Shown: positions 51,180 to 63,270 of the stretch, in pieces
Layout of the letters: each line of letters starts with the position of its first letter
Position numbering within the stretch: the stretch's first letter is position 1
From: Halobacteriovorax sp. JY17
GTDB lineage: Bacteria; Bdellovibrionota; Bacteriovoracia; Bacteriovoracales; Bacteriovoracaceae
Reading direction: 5' to 3'
NCBI RefSeq assembly: GCF_002753895.1
Contig: NZ_NJER01000002.1
Location: 496,001-560,000 of the forward strand
DNA length: 64,000 nt
Notes under the pieces: generated by a model
What the model saw: the letters and a program-made list of their open reading frames with translations, nothing else
What the model was told of the DNA's origin: nothing
Databases searched by the model: none
Position numbers and translations under genes: made by a program

Positions 51180-51782
51180 ATGGAAAATGTTGATAATCCA
51201 AATTCATTAAAAATATCTAAAAGAAAACTTCGAGGAAGAGAGCTCTTTGCAACTCTTCCAAACTCTAGTTTGGAAGAAGGATTATCTAAAACGGCAAATG
51301 AATCTCTAGTAAAAGAATCAGCAATTAGTGTCCAGGAAGAGACTATTGAAGGGTTGAGTAGTGATATTAGCCAACTTGAAGAAATTAGAGAAAAAGAACT
51401 AGCATACTCAATGAAGCTTAAGAATAAAATTCAAGAAAATAAAGAGCAAATTGAAATTTTGCAATTCAAATTTGATAAAATTAAAGAAAGTTATATAAAT
51501 CTTGAAAAAGTTAATCAAGATTATCAGAAAGAACTTATTGTTCTTGAGGCCACTAGATCTAAGAAAGAAAGTAGTTTAAGATTGCTTGAAAATCAGCACA
51601 AGGACTTGAGTGCATCTATCATATCGCTTCGAAATAGAAAAAGAAAAATAACTGATGAAAAGAATAATATTAGTTTGAAACTAGTAAAAGAAGAGAAGTC
51701 CGTACAGAAACTGATGCTTGTTATTGATGAGGATGAAGAGCAAAATGTCTTAAGTTTCCTTCCTCCTGTTCCTGGATTATAG
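51180..51782 (+). CDS. Coiled-coil protein of unknown function
   Basis: A 200-residue protein with an N-terminal stretch of low order (LKISKRKLRGRELFATLPNSSLEEG) followed by long heptad-like coils from about residue 55 to 185 and the tail NVLSFLPPVPGL. No membrane segment or signal. It is 53 bases from the rsh stop and 80 bases before a larger coiled-coil gene with the same character, so the two may act together. No ribosome site is near the ATG; the TAGAAT box (51168-51173) suggests it may be leaderless. Function unknown. Confidence 0.65.
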   Translation: MENVDNPNSLKISKRKLRGRELFATLPNSSLEEGLSKTANESLVKESAISVQEETIEGLSSDISQLEEIREKELAYSMKLKNKIQENKEQIEILQFKFDKIKESYINLEKVNQDYQKELIVLEATRSKKESSLRLLENQHKDLSASIISLRNRKRKITDEKNNISLKLVKEEKSVQKLMLVIDEDEEQNVLSFLPPVPGL

Positions 51783-51862: not shown

Positions 51863-54187
51863 GTGTATAAACTCGTTTTCTTGAGAGAAGAAATGAAAAG
51901 TATAAAAATTATTGTAGCTAAGAAATGTCTCGATTCAATTATGAAGTCTCACCTTGACTCGAGGGAGAAAGAAGCTCAACGGAGAGTGGTTGGCCTACAG
52001 GGAAAGGATAGACTAACTGAAACGTATAGAGCTATTTCTAGTGATATTGTATCTCTCAGGGAAGAAATCAATAAATTACTTACGAGTAATAATAATTTAA
52101 GAGAAGCAAACTTTAGTTTAGAAGGAAAGGTAAATAGAGTATTTGATCAACTAATTGTTGAAAATAAAAAGCTGGAAGTAGAGAAAGAAAGTTCAAGAAC
52201 CTTAAGCAGTAGAGAAGCTGAGCTCATTCGAGAAAAGGCTAATGTTGAAAATGAAATTAAAAAAATAACTAATGAAAGATCAGATCTTTTAGATTTAAAA
52301 AGACAACTTGAGAGCAATATTAAAACTATCGAAGAAGAAACAAAAGAGCTTGAAAAGCATTCTTTAACCATTCAAAAAGATAGCAATTTTGCAAGAGAGA
52401 CTTTTAATAAAGTAGAAAGTCGCTTCGAACAGAAAAGAACAATACTGGAAGTGAAAAGAAAAGAAAGAGAAGCTCAGAATCTATACCTATCTGAAATTGA
52501 AAAGGAATTAGCATCTCTTGAAAGTCGGTATGAAGAAATAGAGGATCAGTCAGTAGAAGCCAAGCTTGATCTTGAAAGAATTATCGAATCACAAGAGAAA
52601 GTCTCCAGTGATTTAAAAGCAATCAAAATCGACGCTTTGAAGGTTGAGGTGGAGATTGAAGATTGTTTAGAATTGATTTCAAACCAAAGTAAGAAAGAAG
52701 AAAATTTAAAGAGCGAATATTTAAAAAATAAAAATGATCTTGAAGAAAGAAGAGAGACTCTAAGAGCGGATAGAGAAAAACTAGATGATGTGAAAAAAAT
52801 AGTCGAAGAAAAAAATAGTGAACTGTCACAGCTTCAGGTTGAGCTTGAAGGGTTGAAAGCTGACGGAGTTAAAGTTAATAATGATCTTAGAAAAAAACGA
52901 AAAGAGCTTGAAGAAGTTGAGAATGCCAAGACGTTGTTAGTTTCCAAAATAAATGATCAAGATAAATTCATTAGGGTACTGAAGGAAGAATCTTCTAAAG
53001 TTTTAAGTGAAGTTGAAAATACTCAGGAGATATATAATTCTAAGCTTGAAAAGTATGAGGAAAATGAAAAACTCTTGATTGACCTTCGTAAAATTAAGGA
53101 TTGCGCTAGATCGAAAATAGAAAAAGAGAAGCAATCATTAGAGAAGATGGAAGTAAGGGGCTTGAAGACCTCTAGAGCGATTGAAAGCTTAGAGCAGGAG
53201 AATATTCTATTAGAGGGGAAGTTAGATTCACTGAGAAATACTAAAATATCATTGGAGACAAAAGTTCATAGTGTTACGGCGAGCTATGAAGAAGAGAGAG
53301 CTCAAAAATCAAAGAATCAGAAAGATATAACTATTTATGAAATAGAGATCGCTGAACTTAAGTCATCATTAAAATCAATAGAAGAGCAAAGGAATGCTTT
53401 TCAAGAGGAATATGAAAGAACTTGTGATGAATTGAATTCTTCAGTTTATTCTGTTGATATGATTAAAAATAGTATTGAAGAGAGAAAAGCTGATGTTGAA
53501 TGCTTACAGCAAAGGACTAATGGGGCAGAAGAAGAAATTAAGTTGAAAGAGAATGAGTTGAAAAGAATGAAGAGAGATCATTGTTCAACAGAAATTAGCC
53601 TTAAAGAGATGGAAGAGAATTACGGTAAAGTTGAGAAGGACTTAGTCGCACTTGAGAAAAGTGTGGAGAGAGAAGCTGGAAAATATAAAAATATAAAGAA
53701 TATCTATGTAGAAAAGAAGAGAATGTTTGAAAAGGCTCAAGAGCGAAAGACGTCTCTAGATAAGCTTCTTTCGAGGACTCGGAAAGTTGTAGTGACTGCA
53801 AATGACACTATTGTTGAGTTGCAAGAGCGAAACAATGCTGTCCTTGCCGAAAATGAAGCTAATGCCAAAGTTTATTCTGAAATGAATAAATCTCTAGCAA
53901 GGAAAAAGAGAGAGTTTAAAAATCTTACAGAAGAAAGTGAAGCTAATAACTTAAGAAAGCAAGAGCTTGAAATTAAGAATAAGAAAGTGAGAGAAGAGCT
54001 TGCTGAAATTGATGTTTATCTCGCTGTTGAGAAGACAAAGACCTCTAGGAATAACGATACTTCTAAGCTTGAAAAAAATAATGGCGAGCTTAGAAGAGAA
54101 TTAGAGCGAAAAGAGAGAGAGCTTGCTGACTTGATAGAGTCTCGTGGACCTCAGAAAGTGATTAGAAGAAAATCTGGAATATGTTAA
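51863..54187 (+). CDS. Long coiled-coil protein of unknown function
   Basis: A 774-residue protein that is almost wholly coiled coil from residue about 50 to 765 (repeated E/K/L heptads such as NNLREANFSLEGKVNRVFDQL), with low complexity and no membrane or enzymatic domain, and a short positive tail (KVIRRKSGIC). It is long enough to span a large distance in the cytoplasm. The start GTG at 51863 has AGAGGA 9 bases upstream; ATG at 51893 is an alternative. It is convergent with the minus-strand Mot operon. SMC- or CcrP-like structural roles are possible but unproved. Confidence 0.65.
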   Translation: MYKLVFLREEMKSIKIIVAKKCLDSIMKSHLDSREKEAQRRVVGLQGKDRLTETYRAISSDIVSLREEINKLLTSNNNLREANFSLEGKVNRVFDQLIVENKKLEVEKESSRTLSSREAELIREKANVENEIKKITNERSDLLDLKRQLESNIKTIEEETKELEKHSLTIQKDSNFARETFNKVESRFEQKRTILEVKRKEREAQNLYLSEIEKELASLESRYEEIEDQSVEAKLDLERIIESQEKVSSDLKAIKIDALKVEVEIEDCLELISNQSKKEENLKSEYLKNKNDLEERRETLRADREKLDDVKKIVEEKNSELSQLQVELEGLKADGVKVNNDLRKKRKELEEVENAKTLLVSKINDQDKFIRVLKEESSKVLSEVENTQEIYNSKLEKYEENEKLLIDLRKIKDCARSKIEKEKQSLEKMEVRGLKTSRAIESLEQENILLEGKLDSLRNTKISLETKVHSVTASYEEERAQKSKNQKDITIYEIEIAELKSSLKSIEEQRNAFQEEYERTCDELNSSVYSVDMIKNSIEERKADVECLQQRTNGAEEEIKLKENELKRMKRDHCSTEISLKEMEENYGKVEKDLVALEKSVEREAGKYKNIKNIYVEKKRMFEKAQERKTSLDKLLSRTRKVVVTANDTIVELQERNNAVLAENEANAKVYSEMNKSLARKKREFKNLTEESEANNLRKQELEIKNKKVREELAEIDVYLAVEKTKTSRNNDTSKLEKNNGELRRELERKERELADLIESRGPQKVIRRKSGIC

Positions 54188-54212
54188 AAAAAGGACCTTT
54201 TAAAGGTCCTTT
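54186..54212 (-). terminator. Terminator of the Mot operon
   Basis: AAAGGACC and GGTCCTTT form an 8-base stem with a 7-base loop; on the minus strand it is followed by TTTTT. The stop codon of the last gene lies in the loop. Confidence 0.8.
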
Positions 54213-55765
54213 GGAAGCTTGTCTATCCCTCTTAGGCAGTCAAGAGATAAGAGTTGAGAAGTTATAATATAGGTTTTCCACTCGTGATTTGGTCTAAAAC
54301 TTTTTGATAATTTAAAAGATTCCTCGCACCTCTTGGAGAATACTAAGTTTTTAAGTCGTCTTAGATCAACCATTTCTTTTTCATTCTCTGTTGTGTTCTT
54401 GTTGATTTTCTTTGCTTCTGAGTCAAGATAGGTTTTGGCGTCATCTCTTAAATAGTTCCAGTGACTTTGTACTTCCGAAGTTAGGTCGTAGCTTCCATCT
54501 TTAAAGTTAATGTTCCAAATTGTGTGCATGATGTCTAGTTTTTCTCCAGTGAGATTTCGAGGAATCCAGTATCTATCAATTTTATTCTTGTAAATAGTAA
54601 GAGTTTTTTCAAATAAGTTTGAAAAGTTTTTAACTGTAAGAGAATTTCGAAGTAGCGGAAATGTAATTGCTAAGGCATCAGATTCATTCATTGCAATATT
54701 CTGTAGCAATGAGAGCCTTGAGTCTTCTCTATTTGTTTTTAAGATGACAAAGAGAAGTAATACCACAATCGCGCCTATCTTTATGAAATCTAAAAAGGAG
54801 GAGAGGAAGGCCGTGAAGACAATTTTCTTCTTTTGGGTATTGAGAATGTCAATCTTATCAAGCTTGTTTAGTTGGTTGAGAGTTCCATCTGTAGACATTG
54901 TCTCAAGTTTGTTAATTTTGCTTAAGTATTCCAAGCTGGCAAGATTTTCAAGTTTATTAAGACTTTCAAGTTTAGATAGGTGATCAAGTTTTGATAATTC
55001 TCCTAATTCTTTTAACCCATCAATCTTGTCTAAATTTGATAAATTCTCTAGTCGATCTAGATATTGTAGGTCTTTTAAATTATCTAGTCCTCGTAGTTGA
55101 TTTAGGGATTCAAGATGATCTAATTTTTCTAGATTATTAAGTAAGTCTAGCTTTTGAAGATTTTGTAGGTCATTACCTTTTTCCTTTAGGATTTGTAAGA
55201 AGGAGTCCAGGCGGTCTAGTTCTTTTAAGTTTTCTAGTTTCTTTAATTCTGTAAGATCATCTAACTTGTTAAGAGATTTAAGTTCATCAAGCTTATTTAA
55301 TGAGGTTAGGTTATCAAGTTTAGAAAGGATCTCTAACTTTTCAAGCTTAGAGAGAGAGTCTAGTCTATCTAGTGATTTTAAGTTATCTAGCTCTTTAAGT
55401 TTTGATACATTACTTTCAAAATGTCTATTTACAAGTTCAAGATTCTTTAAAAGGTCAAGCTTATCTAAGGAGCTCAAATATTCTAGATTAGTTAAATCTT
55501 TTAAGTTATCAAGTTTTGTGAGCTTCGATAAGCTTTCTAATTGCGTAAGTTGAGAAAGGGATTGCAAGTTGTTTAACTTCTCAAGATTGTCGAGAGAAGA
55601 CAGTTTACTCAATTCTCGTAATTCATCAAGCATCGAAAGGTTTTTAATAAGACCTGAGTCAATTAAATTATTTAATTTTGTGATTTGATCTACGAGATAG
55701 TCAGTACTCGAAAGATTAGGGTCTTTAATAACATCTTGATTTTCTGAGATCTCTGTATTACTCAT
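54200..55765 (-). CDS. Leucine-triplet (L-x-x)n rod protein with a transmembrane helix, last gene of the Mot operon
   Basis: The N-terminal part is a striking repeat: a Leu (sometimes Ile, Val, Phe or Met) falls at every third residue. I count unbroken blocks at residues 43-112 (24 triplets), 123-192 (24) and 200-290 (31), plus 296-308 (5), 84 triplets in all. Example: LDNLKSLDRLDSLSKLEKL. A strict period of three does not fit a normal coiled coil (3.5) or LRR; it is the pattern expected of hexad-type alpha/beta coiled coils. A basic stretch QKKK is followed by a membrane helix (about 326-342, KIGAIVVLLLFVIL) and a 180-residue C-terminal domain with two cysteines, probably periplasmic. Overlaps the 187-residue gene by 8 bases. 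Confidence 0.75.
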   Translation of the reverse strand: MSNTEISENQDVIKDPNLSSTDYLVDQITKLNNLIDSGLIKNLSMLDELRELSKLSSLDNLEKLNNLQSLSQLTQLESLSKLTKLDNLKDLTNLEYLSSLDKLDLLKNLELVNRHFESNVSKLKELDNLKSLDRLDSLSKLEKLEILSKLDNLTSLNKLDELKSLNKLDDLTELKKLENLKELDRLDSFLQILKEKGNDLQNLQKLDLLNNLEKLDHLESLNQLRGLDNLKDLQYLDRLENLSNLDKIDGLKELGELSKLDHLSKLESLNKLENLASLEYLSKINKLETMSTDGTLNQLNKLDKIDILNTQKKKIVFTAFLSSFLDFIKIGAIVVLLLFVILKTNREDSRLSLLQNIAMNESDALAITFPLLRNSLTVKNFSNLFEKTLTIYKNKIDRYWIPRNLTGEKLDIMHTIWNINFKDGSYDLTSEVQSHWNYLRDDAKTYLDSEAKKINKNTTENEKEMVDLRRLKNLVFSKRCEESFKLSKSFRPNHEWKTYIITSQLLSLDCLRGIDKLPKDL

Positions 55766-56321
55766 TTTTGGCCCTTGTTAAACTAATTTTATAGGTTAGG
55801 AATTTATTTATTTCTTTCTTTGTTTGTGTTGAAAGGGTCTCATTTGTTTCATTCTTATACCTCATTACTTTGTTTTGAGAAGAAGTAAGATCTCTTTGTA
55901 ATGAGTATTTAATGATAGGAAGTATAGTAACTTGAAAGAAGTGAAGACGATCAGTTTGAAGATAAAAAGAATTTAAATTATCAAGAATTAAATTCCAGTT
56001 CTTTGTGTACTGATAAAAATTCGATTCTACCTCTCCGCTTATTCTTGTTGATCTATTCATGATTTCATTGTTTGTATTGATAATATGATAAATCATGATA
56101 GGGGTGGCTTCTGAAAAAATATTACCAATTTTCTTTTGAAAGCAATAAAGTTCTGTCTCATTATTCAGTTGGCAAAGACTTTCTGTGTTTCCACTCTTAA
56201 AAAGCTTTAATTCTTTTGGATTATTGATGTCGTTGAAATTTAGTTCATATAGAATAGCTAAGACAATAAAAATTGAAAAAATACTGAAGAATTTTATTAT
56301 CTTAAATATGGAGCTATTCAT
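55758..56321 (-). CDS. Bitopic membrane protein of the Mot operon, unknown family
   Basis: A 187-residue protein with one N-terminal membrane helix (ISSIF-like hydrophobic run, about residues 8-26: IIKFFSIFSIFIVLAILYEL) and a helical domain that should lie in the periplasm, with two close cysteines (CQLNNETELYC). No family is recognised. It overlaps the MotB end by 8 bases and the leucine-triplet start by 8 bases, so all four genes are translationally linked. It may link the motor to the rod protein or to the outer layers. Confidence 0.7.
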   Translation of the reverse strand: MNSSIFKIIKFFSIFSIFIVLAILYELNFNDINNPKELKLFKSGNTESLCQLNNETELYCFQKKIGNIFSEATPIMIYHIINTNNEIMNRSTRISGEVESNFYQYTKNWNLILDNLNSFYLQTDRLHFFQVTILPIIKYSLQRDLTSSQNKVMRYKNETNETLSTQTKKEINKFLTYKISLTRAKNE

Positions 56322-57027
56322 CTAAGTAGACTCCAAGACCTAATTTTATTTTCTTCTGTCCTTCATTAACTGGTTTAGCCACTTTTATTACAACTCTTCT
56401 GTTTTGAAGAATATTCCTCATGATTGGTTGACCTTTGTCGTCAGTATTCTCTGCCACAGGTTTTGATTCACCTTTTGAGATTGCTACTAAATTCTTTGCA
56501 GAGAAACCTAGGTATTCAAATCTTTCTAAGACTTTACTTGCTCTTATGGCCGCAAGTTCCCAAGAGGAAGTAACACTCTTGTTCTTTCTATGCTCAAATG
56601 GATCACTATGTCCTTCAATGATAACTTGATAGTTCGCATTCTTAGTTCTGATGATATCGACGAGCGTATCTAAAGAATCTACAAGTTCTTTTGGAAGTTT
56701 TGTTTGCCCCTCTGGAAATAAAACACTTCCTGAAAAAGTAATTGCAAGTTCAGAATTATTTAAAGTTATTTTAGACATTTTTTTAAGTGTAGGGTGGCGA
56801 GCAATTTCCTCATTGATTTCATTGAGCTTAATGTCAGAGCTTTTCCACTTTCCCTTGTTGAAACTTTTTGATAGCTCCTCTGCTTTTTGATTAAAGCCTA
56901 CGGGATCGAAATTAGCAAAGGCCATCATGAGTATAAAGAAACACGCAATAAGTGTCATCATGTCGGCGTAACTTACTAGCCAACCTGAACTATCATCTTC
57001 AGCTTGTTCTTCTTGAAAATCTTGCAT
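56314..57027 (-). CDS. motB: MotB-like stator subunit (OmpA peptidoglycan-binding domain)
   Basis: A 237-residue protein. The membrane segment VSYADMMTLIACFFILMMAF holds the proton-carrying Asp at residue 22. A plug-like linker leads to an OmpA domain that grips peptidoglycan (VIIEGHSDPF ... WELAAIRASKVLERF ... GESKPV ... NRRVVI). All key features of a MotB are intact. It follows motA by 8 bases. The usual role is to form the ion channel with MotA and anchor it; here it is part of a four-gene operon and may drive something other than the flagellum. Confidence 0.9.
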   Translation of the reverse strand: MQDFQEEQAEDDSSGWLVSYADMMTLIACFFILMMAFANFDPVGFNQKAEELSKSFNKGKWKSSDIKLNEINEEIARHPTLKKMSKITLNNSELAITFSGSVLFPEGQTKLPKELVDSLDTLVDIIRTKNANYQVIIEGHSDPFEHRKNKSVTSSWELAAIRASKVLERFEYLGFSAKNLVAISKGESKPVAENTDDKGQPIMRNILQNRRVVIKVAKPVNEGQKKIKLGLGVYLDE

Positions 57028-57035
57028 ATCTTTCC

Positions 57036-57818
57036 TTAGGCTACAGTTTTCCAGTCAAGTCTATCTTTCGGGTCTAGGTATGAATTCAGATCTTCAGCAA
57101 CAAATATAGGATTTGATTTCAACATTATATGTTTTATACCTTCAAGAATAATTTTATCTTTAGTATTCATTTGTCGTTGGATTTCTTCAAGGTTTTCAGA
57201 TATTGGAATAAAGACTAGGTTTGCAATAATAACTCCATAGAGTGTCGTAATAAGACAAACTCCCATGGCCGGACCAATGGTTTTCATAGCATCTGCTCCA
57301 CTTAAGTTTGCAAGGAGAACAACCATACCAATAGTTGTTCCCATCATTCCAAATGCTGGTGGGAATTTTCCAAGTGCCTTAATCTTTCTTGTTTGTTCTG
57401 ATCTAATATAGGCCATCTGTTTTGCTCTTTTTTCAAGAACTTCGACGAGGGCAACCTTATCTAAAATTCCATCTGAAATAAGAGAAATACCCTCTTCAAG
57501 AAATTCATCTGATGCTTTTGAAGAGATTGATTCTAAAGATTCACCTCCTCTTAGTGCTGAACATATACTCATAACATTCTCGATGAGTTTTGTGTTATCA
57601 ACCATTTTACCCATTAAGAAGTTTCTAAAAAATATTTTAAAAATAGCTCCTAATTTATTGAGCTGAAAGGCAATGCAGGTCGCTGCAAAAGTTCCCCCGA
57701 TAACAATAAATAAACTTGGTCCATCAAAGAAGATTTTAAGATTGTCAGAGGACATTTTTAAGCCTGCCATGAGCACGACAGTGGCGATAATTAGTCCAAT
57801 TAAAGAGAAAATATTCAT
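57036..57818 (-). CDS. motA: MotA-like stator subunit
   Basis: A 260-residue four-helix protein: the start MNIFSLIGLIIATVVLMAG, the SLFIVIGGTFAATCIAF helix, the cytoplasmic loop with charged residues (SEQTRKIKALGKFPPAF), then GMMGTTIGMVVLL and PAMGVCLITTLYGVIIANLVF. The conserved prolines and glycine-rich helix of flagellar MotA are present. Size is that of a standard MotA, with no long ZorA-like tail. It is the first gene of the minus-strand operon. No FliA promoter could be found upstream. Confidence 0.92.
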   Translation of the reverse strand: MNIFSLIGLIIATVVLMAGLKMSSDNLKIFFDGPSLFIVIGGTFAATCIAFQLNKLGAIFKIFFRNFLMGKMVDNTKLIENVMSICSALRGGESLESISSKASDEFLEEGISLISDGILDKVALVEVLEKRAKQMAYIRSEQTRKIKALGKFPPAFGMMGTTIGMVVLLANLSGADAMKTIGPAMGVCLITTLYGVIIANLVFIPISENLEEIQRQMNTKDKIILEGIKHIMLKSNPIFVAEDLNSYLDPKDRLDWKTVA

Positions 57819-58110: not shown

Positions 58111-61100
58111 TTGAAGAATTTCTTATCACTATTTCTTTCTATCTGCGTTGCCTCCTGTGTGGGGACGGTAGATGACAAAAATTTAGATACGACTAAGACA
58201 GCTATCTCCACAGAGAAGAAGCTAGATTTTAATGGTATTGTAGATGCTCAGGCAATTTCTGATTCTAGAGTTGCCGTATTCTTTAATGCTGTTGCAGGTG
58301 ACCCAGCTGATTTTTCTTACCAAATTGTTGTTAATAATTCTCAAAATCCAATTAATGTCAGAGGAGATAGTTTAGAAGTAAATTCAGCAGGGCAATATAC
58401 CTATATTGTAACAGATCTCTCTCCAGCAACTAAGTATGCATTCAATGTTAACGTAAGTGGTGCAGATGGTTCTAGTGGGGAAGGTTCACTAAATATTTAT
58501 GCGACGACGTTTTCTAATAAGACGTGCGACTTTGAAGGGGTTTCTTCTGTTGATGTTCCTGCAGGTTCTGGAGGAAAAACATCCTTGGTTGTACGCTGGG
58601 TCCCTGCGGTTACAAGATCTACAAGTGTGGTTTATAAGAATATTCAAGATCCTTATAAGTATGTCATTTATAAAATTGATGCTTATGGAGGATCTGGAAA
58701 TCTTTTTAATGACTCTTACAACAGTCCTGATAAAGAGGTTGTTGAAATTCCTGCAGGTGGAACAACAGAGTATCGTTTTCCTGGTCTCGATTCTGGAAAG
58801 AAGTATTACTTTGGAGTTAGATGTCTTCATGAAGGATATAAATCAAATCCATCATTATTAGTTGAGAAGAACTTAAAAATTATTTCTCAAACAACGAGGG
58901 ATAATACAGCTATTTTTGATTGGCAACCAACAAGTGTGAATATTATTACTCCGAGTGGGAAAAATGGTGAGAAGAGTAGAATCTTTACTTGGGAATCAGC
59001 GGCGGGTGATTTCTTTAATTATAGATTGTACTACCAAGGTTATACAACTGACCCTTCTCTTGTTCCTGATCCATTTACCGATGTAACTTTGGCCGACCCA
59101 GAATCAAAGATATATAGAACAATTAATGCTGAAGATGTTTCTTATGAATTGAATTTAACAGATGGAGATAAGTATAAGTATTATCATATGAAGCTTATAG
59201 CATGTGCTACATCTCAGTGCTTAAGTGGTCAAAGAATTGGTATTGATTCGACTTATTTAATTACGAAGCAAATAATTCCTAAAATTGCTCCTTTTCAAGG
59301 GATCCAGAAAATAGAAAACCCAAAATCTGCTACGGCTGTTGATTCTATTTGGATTAAAGCTGAAGCGCCTGCGATGACGGAAGGACATGCTCATAGGTTA
59401 AATCTTTATTGCTTAAAGGATGGTGCTGACAAGTCTACTAGGTTCTTAAAAAGAGCGGATGGAACTTTTGGAACTGGTGCTGACGATAGAGGAAGTTGTG
59501 CAGATCTTACAGTTGCTGGAACAGTTCCAGCAACAGAAGCTCAACTCTATGCCTTTACGGAGCTGGAGATTAGTGGAGCTAAAACGGATGGAACAACTTA
59601 TTGCTTAATGATGGTACCTGTTTTAGAAAATATAACACCAGCATATTACTATGAAGATATTGGTGGTGCCTCTATAAGATGTATTACACCTGAAATTGTT
59701 ACTCCAAAAATTTATGAGTTTGCAGGAAAAGATTCTTGTAGTCTCATTGGATCAAGTAGTTCTCAGTTGGATGTTAACTGGTCTCAGCCTGGGGGGGGGA
59801 TTTATAGTGGATACTATGTTTACTATAAGGATGAAGAAGTAGGAACTAAGTTTAATTTTGCTGCAGCTCTTCAAGCACAAGAAGATGTAGACGATTCTGA
59901 ATATTTTACACCAGTTGATATCGCAAACCGGACAACGTATACAAGTCGACTTTCTAATCTCATCCCAGGGCATTCTTATGAGATTGGAGTTCTGACATAT
60001 GTTGATGTTGGTGGTGTAAAAAAGTTTTCAGAAGGAAACCTAAATACCTATTCTTGTACTGTTCCAATTCCTGAATACTCATTTCAAGAGTGGACAGGTG
60101 TAATGGCCCTCGGTCCTAAAACAAATGAGCTCTATCCAAAGAATATGAATGCATACTTTGTTCAAGAGTCATTAGATGCAATGAATAGACCATTTGAAGT
60201 TTTAATGAAGGAGATAGGAACTCCTGCTGACTTTGATGAAGAAGCTGCCGATTCAACACCAACTTTTGGACTAGATAATGAATATGTAAAGACAGATCTC
60301 TACGGCAGTGCAAGTGAGTTCAATGGTACTTATGGTTCAACAACAAATTCTGAATTCATGAGTACTGCTTTAAAATATTCAAATACAGGGGTTATTAAAT
60401 TCGCTTTTAAAGACGTCTTGATAAATATTGATGGAACAAGTGTAAATCTTTCCGATTATGCTATTAATACCATAGGACTTCCTGCTGCGAAGAAAGATAG
60501 AAAGTATGGTTATAAAATCTTAAGATCAGAAGATAATGGAACTTCTTGGGTTGATATTACGAAGGGGAATTTTGCATATCAGAATGCAACGAATGAAGGA
60601 CTTGTTGTCGCTTCAAATATTCCTAAGGTTAGGCCTCATGCGGGAGAGGATTTACCGGCTGGTAATGAATGGATTATTAACTTTACGGACTATTCAGTAA
60701 AAGCTGAGAAATTATCATCGACTTATACTGAGAGAGCGAGAATCTATCAGTATAAAGTTGTTCCTATTTTTGATGGGAAAGAGTTAACGATGGTATCATC
60801 TTCCAATAATCCTACTCATAATATTATTAAGATTACTCTTCCGCCGCCGAATATGGCACTTGTTCATAGATGGATGGCGAATAGAACTTGGTGTCGTGAG
60901 ATCGGAAGAAATCCAAATACTGCTGAAGGTGTAAACTACTCTTGCTCTTATTCTGGGCTTGGCTCTCAGGGGGTAACTCTTCCATGGAGACTAGGACAGA
61001 CTGTTATTGACTTGGGAGGAGATTTACTTGTTGATAGATTTGAGCTTGGTTGTGGATTTTCAAGAGGAGATACTACTCAAGATCAGTCTTTAAATAAGAG

Positions 61101-63270
61101 TTCGTTTTCAGGTTCTCAATTAGACTTTGAAGGATTGAATGATCTTACTAGTCCGAGTGAGTTTAAAGGTTGTTATTACGATGAAGGCAGTGCTGCCTCT
61201 GATAATAATTTAGCTTCTCAGTTTAGTCGAGAGAATGGTGGGCAAACAGGTTCGAGATATTCTCAAATGGTAAGAGGAGACTGTCTTGGTGACGGGAAGA
61301 ATCTAGTTATTCCAAGAGAGTATTGTGATTCACCGATTAAATCTTTTGATGAAAACGTTTATTACCCAGGAAATGTTAATACGCCGGGAAGTTGTTCGAC
61401 AGTTACTCATGCTGGAGATGGAGGAACAACCGCTTATAACTATGAAGAAAATAGTGTGCAGAGTCTATTTGCTTCAGTTTTCTATCAACGTTCTAAATAT
61501 TCTTCTAGGCACTATGGTTTAGTAAATCCTCATTATACAGCACCAGACAGTGCAAGACTTACCATAAATGGTGATGGGTTTATGAATAACTGTATGATTA
61601 ATCTCCCTTATATAAATGGATCTGGAAAGTATAGACCTAGATGGTTTGGTACTTCGGCCTTAATGTCGGGAGTTAGAAATTCAATCACAGCTGTAAATAG
61701 TATTCTCTATAATAAAACGGTAGGTGAAGTTCTTGCGAATACAAATCTCTACAATTTATCTGATGTCGCCGCCCCTTCTCTTCCTGAGGGGATGAATTCA
61801 GATACTCCAATGGGAAGAGTCTTTTCAAGCAATGGGTCAGGGCTTCCTCCATTGGATGGAATGGATCAGGAGGATACTCATAACCTTTGCAGTACGTTTA
61901 ATGTGGAAGTTGGGATAAAGGTTGGGAGTGACCCTTTTGCTTCCTTTGGGCAGAAAAAACCTAAGAGACTTTTAAGAAGAAAAGAATTTATTGCATCCTC
62001 TGCTTGGAGTGAATCCTTGGCCGCAAGAAATACTGCAAGTCCTTATAACGATGCGTCTAATGACGGTACAATTCTTCAAATTGAAGCTGAAGAATGCAAT
62101 AGTAATTATAAAGGAGTCGATGCTGTTAGTGGTGGAGCTGACTATAATCAAATTGGAGAAGATATAAGGTCTAATTTTGGTTTTGTTGGAGCTACTTCGA
62201 CTCGAGTACCACTTCTTACTGGAAGTGGTGTAAGTACGGGAGTAAATAGCAGTTCTGCAAAGTGTGTTAGTAAGTATGGAATTCAAGATTTAGTTGGAAA
62301 TGTTGTAGAAAGTGTAAGTGATCAACTCTTTTGTTTTACTGGTGAAAGAATAATGTTCAATAAGACAAGTGCTGGCTTAGGTTCAGGTGATGCAGAGTGG
62401 ACAGAGTATCCAGGATCTAGTTTTATAGAAGAAAATGAGTTTAACTCTCTCTTTCAGACTCCTTTTCTCGATACGATAAATACTGGAAGGTGTTCAGTTA
62501 ATGAAGAAGGTGCGTCGAGAGCTTATGATGCATTAATTCCTGGTTCAAGTATCATTAATTCTATATTTACTGAGATAGGTTCAACTACAGTAAATCCTTT
62601 AGTTGTTCCAAAAGTAAAAAACTTTGATATTGAATCTCTTAATCAGGCAAGAAATGGAGATGGAAGCTTCTTAGACTTTGGAAATGATAGACTAGGTCCT
62701 AATTTGTCTAATTCTAATAATTTAAGTTCCGGAGGATACTTTAGTCATCTGCTGGGGCTACCTCTCTCCTGCTCGGGGACAGCTTGTAATGACTCTCTTG
62801 ATAATGAAGTCATAAATATTGATGCAGCATTTGATACATCCGGAAGAACGCTCTCGTCAGTGAATGATGTTTCATTTGCAGATGGAATGATTTACAAATT
62901 CTCTCTTGGGAATTCTAGATTTACTAATTCGGGTACATTAGATGTTAGTGTTGAGACTAGAACTTTTGACCCTGCGACTATGGAAGATAATCAATCTTTT
63001 AATTATATTACAGACCTAGACTATAGTGGGGGAACTTGGACTGCAACAACTGCTGATGCAAAAGATAATGGAGGAGTTGTGGTGGCGAAGAGATCTCTTT
63101 TCTCAATTCCAAGAAGTGGAGCAGTACTCTCTATTCCTTCTGGCGGAAGCGTTTATGAGCAAAAAAGTGGTAGGTATACGGCAAATATTAAAAGAGTTAG
63201 TGGAAATATTAAGAGAGTTCTAAGTTCTGGAATGGCCGGGAGATGCTCTATTTTAATCAATGAAAATTAA
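58111..63270 (+). CDS. Giant lipoprotein with fibronectin-III repeats and FGE/SUMF1-like C-terminal region
   Basis: 1719 residues with a lipoprotein signal (LSICVASC, Cys 16). Residues about 30-1000 hold several fibronectin-III-like domains (for example YTYIVTDLSPATKYAFNVNVSGADG). The later region has the look of a formylglycine-generating-enzyme/SUMF1 type domain (VDRFELGCGF, then YGIQDLVGNVVES, like the family's DMxGNVWEW), probably without FGE activity. It is rich in cysteines. The start codon is TTG with AAAGGA upstream. It is a surface or periplasmic structural or adhesive protein. A second lipoprotein gene follows 38 bases after the stop. Confidence 0.75.
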   Translation: MKNFLSLFLSICVASCVGTVDDKNLDTTKTAISTEKKLDFNGIVDAQAISDSRVAVFFNAVAGDPADFSYQIVVNNSQNPINVRGDSLEVNSAGQYTYIVTDLSPATKYAFNVNVSGADGSSGEGSLNIYATTFSNKTCDFEGVSSVDVPAGSGGKTSLVVRWVPAVTRSTSVVYKNIQDPYKYVIYKIDAYGGSGNLFNDSYNSPDKEVVEIPAGGTTEYRFPGLDSGKKYYFGVRCLHEGYKSNPSLLVEKNLKIISQTTRDNTAIFDWQPTSVNIITPSGKNGEKSRIFTWESAAGDFFNYRLYYQGYTTDPSLVPDPFTDVTLADPESKIYRTINAEDVSYELNLTDGDKYKYYHMKLIACATSQCLSGQRIGIDSTYLITKQIIPKIAPFQGIQKIENPKSATAVDSIWIKAEAPAMTEGHAHRLNLYCLKDGADKSTRFLKRADGTFGTGADDRGSCADLTVAGTVPATEAQLYAFTELEISGAKTDGTTYCLMMVPVLENITPAYYYEDIGGASIRCITPEIVTPKIYEFAGKDSCSLIGSSSSQLDVNWSQPGGGIYSGYYVYYKDEEVGTKFNFAAALQAQEDVDDSEYFTPVDIANRTTYTSRLSNLIPGHSYEIGVLTYVDVGGVKKFSEGNLNTYSCTVPIPEYSFQEWTGVMALGPKTNELYPKNMNAYFVQESLDAMNRPFEVLMKEIGTPADFDEEAADSTPTFGLDNEYVKTDLYGSASEFNGTYGSTTNSEFMSTALKYSNTGVIKFAFKDVLINIDGTSVNLSDYAINTIGLPAAKKDRKYGYKILRSEDNGTSWVDITKGNFAYQNATNEGLVVASNIPKVRPHAGEDLPAGNEWIINFTDYSVKAEKLSSTYTERARIYQYKVVPIFDGKELTMVSSSNNPTHNIIKITLPPPNMALVHRWMANRTWCREIGRNPNTAEGVNYSCSYSGLGSQGVTLPWRLGQTVIDLGGDLLVDRFELGCGFSRGDTTQDQSLNKSSFSGSQLDFEGLNDLTSPSEFKGCYYDEGSAASDNNLASQFSRENGGQTGSRYSQMVRGDCLGDGKNLVIPREYCDSPIKSFDENVYYPGNVNTPGSCSTVTHAGDGGTTAYNYEENSVQSLFASVFYQRSKYSSRHYGLVNPHYTAPDSARLTINGDGFMNNCMINLPYINGSGKYRPRWFGTSALMSGVRNSITAVNSILYNKTVGEVLANTNLYNLSDVAAPSLPEGMNSDTPMGRVFSSNGSGLPPLDGMDQEDTHNLCSTFNVEVGIKVGSDPFASFGQKKPKRLLRRKEFIASSAWSESLAARNTASPYNDASNDGTILQIEAEECNSNYKGVDAVSGGADYNQIGEDIRSNFGFVGATSTRVPLLTGSGVSTGVNSSSAKCVSKYGIQDLVGNVVESVSDQLFCFTGERIMFNKTSAGLGSGDAEWTEYPGSSFIEENEFNSLFQTPFLDTINTGRCSVNEEGASRAYDALIPGSSIINSIFTEIGSTTVNPLVVPKVKNFDIESLNQARNGDGSFLDFGNDRLGPNLSNSNNLSSGGYFSHLLGLPLSCSGTACNDSLDNEVINIDAAFDTSGRTLSSVNDVSFADGMIYKFSLGNSRFTNSGTLDVSVETRTFDPATMEDNQSFNYITDLDYSGGTWTATTADAKDNGGVVVAKRSLFSIPRSGAVLSIPSGGSVYEQKSGRYTANIKRVSGNIKRVLSSGMAGRCSILINEN

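Follow-up and report, generated by a model that had tools for sequence, protein, structure and literature searches.

Can a three-residue repeat form a stable protein rod? Fibrous folds are few and are defined by their periods: 3 residues in collagen, 5 or 6 per side in β-solenoids, and about 3.5 to 3.67 in coiled coils. We know of no established fold for a natural leucine period of exactly 3 that extends over up to 285 residues. The 64,000-nucleotide stretch of Halobacteriovorax sp. JY17 DNA analyzed here (the window) encodes a protein with a long N-terminal rod of Leu-x-x (Lxx) triplets, which makes this question testable.

Leucine period, joints, and family of the rod protein

The protein consists of the N-terminal Lxx rod, one membrane helix, and a helical C-terminal domain, encoded as follows.

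54200..55765, minus strand: rod protein gene, 521 amino acids, ATG start (ORF list, family, selection on the period)
55430..55648, minus strand: Lxx block 1, residues 40–112, 25 triplets (spacing-3 run count)
55409..55429, minus strand: joint 1, residues 113–119, 8-residue step, 2 mod 3 (joint comparison)
55190..55408, minus strand: Lxx block 2, residues 120–192, 25 triplets (spacing-3 run count)
55169..55189, minus strand: joint 2, residues 193–199, 8-residue step, the joint shared throughout the family (joint comparison)
54896..55168, minus strand: Lxx block 3, residues 200–290, 31 triplets (spacing-3 run count, AlphaFold2)
54842..54880, minus strand: Lxx block 4, residues 296–308, 5 triplets (spacing-3 run count)
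54740..54796, minus strand: membrane helix, residues 324–342 (Kyte-Doolittle mean 2.74)
54203..54739, minus strand: C-terminal all-helical domain, residues 343–521 (AlphaFold2, BamD match, Cys pair)
54190..54212, no strand assigned: inverted repeat AAAGGACC-TTTTAAA-GGTCCTTT covering the end of the rod gene (read directly from the sequence)

The runs of 25, 25, 31, and 5 triplets were counted with Leu, Ile, Met, Val, and Phe all accepted at spacing 3. The original prediction reported Leu or Ile at every third residue for 24, 24, 31, and 5 triplets, and a count restricted to Leu and Ile gives nearly those values. The longest Leu/Ile-only run in the window protein is 30 triplets, and 91% of the period-3 hydrophobic positions in the whole family are Leu. 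When the sequence was shuffled 20,000 times, the longest run never exceeded 12 triplets (whole protein) or 15 triplets (rod residues alone). These results confirm that the period-three rod is real and unusual. The rod is not the product of a DNA tandem repeat, because TRF finds none within the rod and the rod a positions use a mix of the six Leu codons. A conserved LxKLDKxDIL motif lies in the block 4 region, ahead of the membrane helix. Two plus-strand ORFs (54744–54983 and 55266–55553) oppose the rod gene, and the pattern of silent changes among homologues indicates that the minus strand is coding. The inverted repeat at 54190..54212 lies between convergent genes and, from its sequence, appears to be a terminator-like element.

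The leucine period of three is kept by selection. In eight pairs of close homologues, amino-acid change affected 0–9% of the Leu positions, compared with 10–73% at the two other positions of the triplet, and 55–88% of the same Leu codons differed silently. Insertions and deletions in the rods of these pairs were mostly of 3, 6, 9, or 12 residues, with a few exceptions (4, 8, and 20).

The interruptions between blocks are likewise ordered. The two breaks of about 8–10 residues that had been described in the window protein do exist, but neither is random: the hydrophobic positions on either side of each break stand exactly 8 residues apart, and the break forms a conserved joint. In nearly all members of the family, the hydrophobic positions that flank the joint are 8 or 11 residues apart, a step that is always 2 mod 3, and the joint has a recognizable motif (ILKEKGNDLQNL in the window, TLEKEGHKFEKL in G013, LLENNSEKFMML in G007, and LMQDHAEDFQKL in G117). 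The rods of G035 and G106 have a different register change, with a step of 4, and those of G123 and G082 have longer interruptions that remain in phase. The joint is a feature common to the rods and not a sign of decay.

We found the combination of rod, membrane helix, and C-terminal domain in 14 genomes from six genera, all within the bacterial family to which the window belongs. Homologues from other genera keep the period of 3, and their longest runs range from 27 to 95 triplets; the G035 homologue has an unbroken run of 283 residues. Among 369 genomes of the phylum that were searched, no further convincing rod protein appeared outside that family, tblastn against plasmids and phages gave no rod match, and a scan of genome contigs for rods gave only LRR-like proteins from other phyla. 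In G026, G033, and G091, the membrane helix and C-terminal domain follow an unrelated low-complexity N-terminus, and the rod is therefore a replaceable module. Homologous genes (L033 574–2412, L034 1312–3138, and L035 1306–3081) encode the C-terminal membrane half with a long acidic low-complexity N-terminus and no Lxx rod.

Pfam, NCBIfam, and the PDB sequences contain no family-level match to the rod or to the C-terminal domain, and Pfam, NCBIfam, and PADLOC give no convincing match to the rod. Several candidates were rejected. Apparent rods in L002, L036, and L037 and ESL repeats in L137 are low-complexity sequences or come from DNA repeats translated in an arbitrary frame. The match of the rod to a PADLOC type II methyltransferase model (PDLC03289, 4e-21) was judged compositional; the similarity comes down to a single stretch of the model that aligns to the rod four times over, and in the window genome the model finds the rod alone. 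Shorter Lxx stretches may occur in other natural proteins.

Fold of the rod

As judged from the period, a heptad coiled coil is excluded: the heptad a/d spacing (3-4, period 3.5) is absent, and the period is strictly 3.0 over 25–95 triplets. The argument made in the original prediction that a period of 3 differs from that of a heptad coiled coil, a pentapeptide repeat, or a leucine-rich repeat (LRR) is borne out by the sequence. Among the papers available to the literature search, none described a natural leucine coiled coil with a three-residue period.

Structure prediction and charge statistics give conflicting evidence on the fold. In an AlphaFold2 model of the full protein, the rod has no confident fold (pLDDT about 40), and a Foldseek search after structure prediction, which the original prediction had suggested, was run on this full model and returned nothing under E 0.1. 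When block 3 was modeled in isolation with a phase-locked 25-row alignment, AlphaFold2 drew one helix over residues 2–92 (pLDDT 83.6). This model favors a plain long α-helix with the leucines winding around it, many such helices being packed side by side into an array or sheet, a possibility that we nevertheless regard as doubtful. AlphaFold2 monomers tend toward helices for low-complexity rods of this kind. At 100 degrees per residue, each triplet would drift by 60 degrees, and no single hydrophobic face would result. The composition is also unlike that expected for a plain helix, since Ala is rare (2–4%), Asp makes up 26% of the residues directly after Leu, and Asn makes up 14% at the next position.

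As a guide to the backbone, we measured the pairing of charges between the exposed positions b and c and compared it with shuffles made separately for b and for c. Charges of opposite sign couple at i+1 (z −6.0), i+2 (z −9.5), and i+3 (z −4.7 and −5.2) and are avoided at i+4 (z +4.3), statistical values obtained from blocks that are partly related to one another. The sign of the lag-2 coupling was the same in 12 of 12 genomes and that of lag 4 in 11 of 12. Two predicted coiled-coil proteins from the same window, used as α-helix controls, showed coupling at lags 3 and 4 only, with modest z values of −1.9 and −2.5, so that the avoidance at i,i+4 and the coupling at i,i+2 in the rod reverse the helix signature of the controls; the coupling at i,i+3 is common to both. 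The size of the lag-4 effect is less telling than the lack of attraction there, because coupling at lags 1–3 indirectly yields some avoidance. The control genes (51863–54187 and 51180–51782, both plus strand) encode two apparent long coiled coils and are convergent with the rod gene; Pfam gave no informative family match for either.

By these statistics, the charge pattern argues against a plain α-helix and would favor a three-residue helical repeat or an extended chain. It would fit a three-residue helical repeat in which position c and the following position b flank one Leu layer. The spacing and surface charges of the rod match no known fiber fold among those testable in this analysis. We tentatively propose, while holding it to be well short of probable, that the rod represents a new class of fiber: a natural in-register bundle whose every triplet would make up one turn, as in 3-10-like helices or some other backbone repeat of three residues. 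Leu would pack at every turn, for up to 95 turns, and the rod would give a non-flagellar MotAB machine a cytoplasmic arm of adjustable length.

The original prediction raised the possibility of a trimeric α/β coiled coil, in which hexads form β-layers. Hexads and nonads do give β-layers in trimers, and a minimal hexad fiber was predicted by Hartmann et al. (2016), who sought one and found none; proteins with hexad spacing had not been detected, and a hexad-only version was neither found nor built by those authors (PMC4786415). The strong i,i+2 coupling in the rod would suit short extended stretches. In the β-layer motif, [aliphatic]-A-T-K-[polar]-[DE], however, the second residue is small (Hartmann et al., 2016; PMC4786415). 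The rod shows no such preference: Ala (2.1%) and Val (2.0%) together account for about 4% of the residues after Leu. There is also no period-6 alternation: triplet identity is not raised at lag 6, is highest among the short lags at lag 9, and is flat beyond nine. Comparison with DUF16 and hexad families, a check suggested together with the trimer idea, gave no match. The α/β coiled coils of OMP100, Tcar0761, and DUF16 MPN010 resemble the rod in that periodicities in multiples of three break heptad geometry (PMC4786415), but they consist of nonads or isolated β-layers within heptads, whereas the triplets of the rod are all alike and lack the β-layer motif. We consider a hexad trimer improbable.

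A degenerate LRR solenoid seems very improbable. The LRRs of internalin and PP1 regulatory subunit 7 carry LxxLxxL on their convex side, and rod segments match them with E 1e-8 to 3.5e-11, but these matches slide and require gaps, and we rejected the PDB sequence matches of the rod as hits to LRR proteins with LxxLxxL in common. The rod lacks the LxLxxN consensus, has no match to Pfam LRR models, and has no repeat unit longer than 3 residues; neither the Pfam search nor the lag identities revealed an LRR unit of 20–29 residues with LxxLxLxxNxL. Internalin LRRs thus share LxxLxxL stretches and a similar composition with the rod but differ from it in their 20- to 24-residue unit and strand consensus.

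Membrane half, operon, and genomic linkage

The original prediction that the protein crosses the membrane and ends in a domain of unknown fold agrees with our results: there is one helix, at residues 324–342, and the C-terminal domain has no Pfam or PDB sequence match. AlphaFold2 predicts this domain of about 180 residues to be all-helical (pLDDT about 80–94), apart from two very short strands at residues 422–427. Its last helices are TPR-like and align to BamD (Z 6.0, rmsd 1.4 over 51 residues), which reflects a common arrangement and is no proof of kinship. The VIA-align Z values were all below 8 and mostly represent common helical arrangements, so that a missing match to PflB there proves nothing. 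A Cys pair occurs at the same columns of the domain in six diverged members.

The rod gene is the last gene of a tightly packed motA2-motB2-u187-rod operon, and the same set is present in G013 and G082. The neighboring features are as follows.

55758..56321, minus strand: u187, 187 amino acids, N-terminal membrane helix and two conserved Cys (ORF list, homologue comparison)
56314..57027, minus strand: motB2, plug and OmpA-type peptidoglycan-binding domain (Pfam MotB_plug 1.9e-13, OmpA 2.6e-12)
57036..57818, minus strand: motA2, in a clade apart from the flagellar MotA of the same genomes (Pfam MotA_ExbB, alignment, tree)
58111..63270, plus strand: fibronectin-III protein, 1719 amino acids, lipoprotein-like N-terminus, divergent from motA2 (neighborhood comparison)

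The u187 gene overlaps motB2 and the rod gene by 8 nt at each junction. Its product has no detectable kinship to the C-terminal domain of the rod protein (hhalign probability 1.7%). The rod protein has no signal peptide-like N-terminus. Lysines precede the membrane helix, but charge is weak evidence of orientation because it is similar beyond the helix; the Cys pairs of the C-terminal domain and of u187 suit the periplasm. Judging from these sequence features, the C-terminal domain is probably periplasmic and the rod cytoplasmic.

Where a genome has both genes, the linkage of rod and motA2 is strong: they are no more than about 6 kb apart in all nine genomes that carry both on a long enough contig, a count that leaves out G035 and G129, whose contigs end too soon. 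In G117, G118, G123, G131, and G132, the rod gene is head to head (divergent) with motA2, and in G106 it is about 6 kb from motAB2; genes for PilZ-domain and guanylate-cyclase-domain proteins lie between motAB and the rod in that genome (L053 2264–7557). We found motA2 in 11 of 14 genomes with the rod and in 33 of 115 without it (Fisher p 4e-4, uncorrected for relatedness and with four weak motA hits of E above 1e-50 omitted). In many genomes, motAB2 occurs in the absence of the rod; G004 and G015, which are close relatives, are among them. In genus g4 (G007, G143, and G145; L018, L057, and L058), the rod has a different neighborhood, near groESL, and no match to motA2 was found at E 1e-40. 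In many relatives, including some that lack the rod, one or two copies of fibronectin-III homologues adjoin motA2 or the rod. The original prediction is partly supported by these analyses, but it did not note the motAB operon, the conservation of the joint, or the existence of a family.

The second MotAB pair and its relation to known motors

Besides motB2, the window genome has one more MotB_plug gene (C1:1569199), which belongs to the longer type seen in those flagellated relatives that were tested. The relative G001 has one MotB_plug gene, and one motAB pair has been reported in Halobacteriovorax marinus (PMC11323537). In a phylogenetic tree, the clade of window-type MotAs is split from the MotAs encoded beside the longer (flagellar-type) MotBs with support of 100/100, and the rod-linked MotAs are spread over several branches of the motA2 clade. 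MotA2 lacks an ARRES-x-FALEK stretch that the flagellar MotAs of these genomes conserve. From the alignment, this stretch would correspond in position to the region of MotA described as contacting the rotor (PMC12505986). FliF was not found in genus g32 (genomes up to 99% complete), and FliG was not found in the two g32 genomes tested, G035 and G106. Both of these genomes retain motAB2 together with the rod, and both features are absent from G104 and G105.

A flagellar role was our first reading of the operon, and it was demoted after the FliF/FliG result. Because MotA2 forms a separate clade, lacks the conserved motif, and is kept with MotB2 and the rod in genomes without FliF and FliG, the second MotAB machine is probably not flagellar. 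In this bacterial family, the rod gene would then be a marker of a second MotAB machine that is apparently non-flagellar. The machine may act in surface movement, attachment, or envelope work; gliding is a guess at its role.

It is unlikely that the rod protein is instead an accessory of the flagellar motor, such as a stator scaffold or a swap-in stator. Most rod carriers are flagellated, MotA2 and MotB2 belong overall to the flagellar type, plug and OmpA domains included, and the layout of the rod protein is like that of PflB; this reading is, however, at odds with the absence of ARRES-x-FALEK from MotA2 and with the retention of motAB2 and the rod in G035 and G106. We regard a Zorya-like defense complex with its tail on a separate chain as extremely improbable: MotB2 matches PADLOC ZorB models (best 5e-15), and the MotAB-like motor of Zorya has a 5:2 stoichiometry and a long tail in the cytoplasm (PMC11890865), but the ZorB scores are judged to be those expected from any MotB, no ZorA model matches MotA2, no Zor model in PADLOC matches the rod or u187, and by inspection of the ORF list, no neighboring ORF resembles ZorC, ZorD, or ZorE.

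Taken as a whole, the proposal that the leucine-triad rod is the cytoplasmic arm of a non-flagellar MotAB complex stands, in our judgment, at an even balance. The rod protein would be a single-pass inner-membrane member of the second MotAB complex, and its cytoplasmic N-terminal part would be a stiff rod of Lxx triplets. The leucines would line one face and probably pack against those of neighboring chains, the length of the rod would be tuned through gain or loss of whole triplets, and the conserved joint would link the blocks while shifting the register by two residues. The membrane helix would lead into a small periplasmic, partly TPR-like helical domain that may work beside MotB2 and u187, and in the cytoplasm the rod may serve as an arm or scaffold, holding the MotA2 ring, setting its spacing, or coupling it. 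We infer that the rods oligomerize, that the protein contacts MotAB2 physically, and that it has a role in the motor.

Such an arrangement would resemble PflB of the Campylobacter motor or the ZorA tail of Zorya. The ZorA tail is, as the Lxx rod would be, a long cytoplasmic rod of a MotAB-like motor (PMC11890865), but it is part of the MotA-like chain, whereas the rod is a separate membrane protein, and no Zorya effectors were recognized near it. PflB, a flagellar stator scaffold, has a cytoplasmic N-terminus, one membrane helix, a periplasmic helical (TPR) part, and a MotB partner (PMC11870540), which the layout proposed for the rod protein would resemble. No sequence match between the two proteins was found, an Lxx rod is undescribed for PflB, and the rod protein, unlike PflB, is kept in genomes without FliF and FliG. 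PflB has a long periplasmic TPR superhelix with paired strands, whereas the C-terminal domain of the rod protein has only about 180 residues. Removal of the cytoplasmic N-terminus of PflB, the part that would correspond to the rod, halves motility (PMC11870540).
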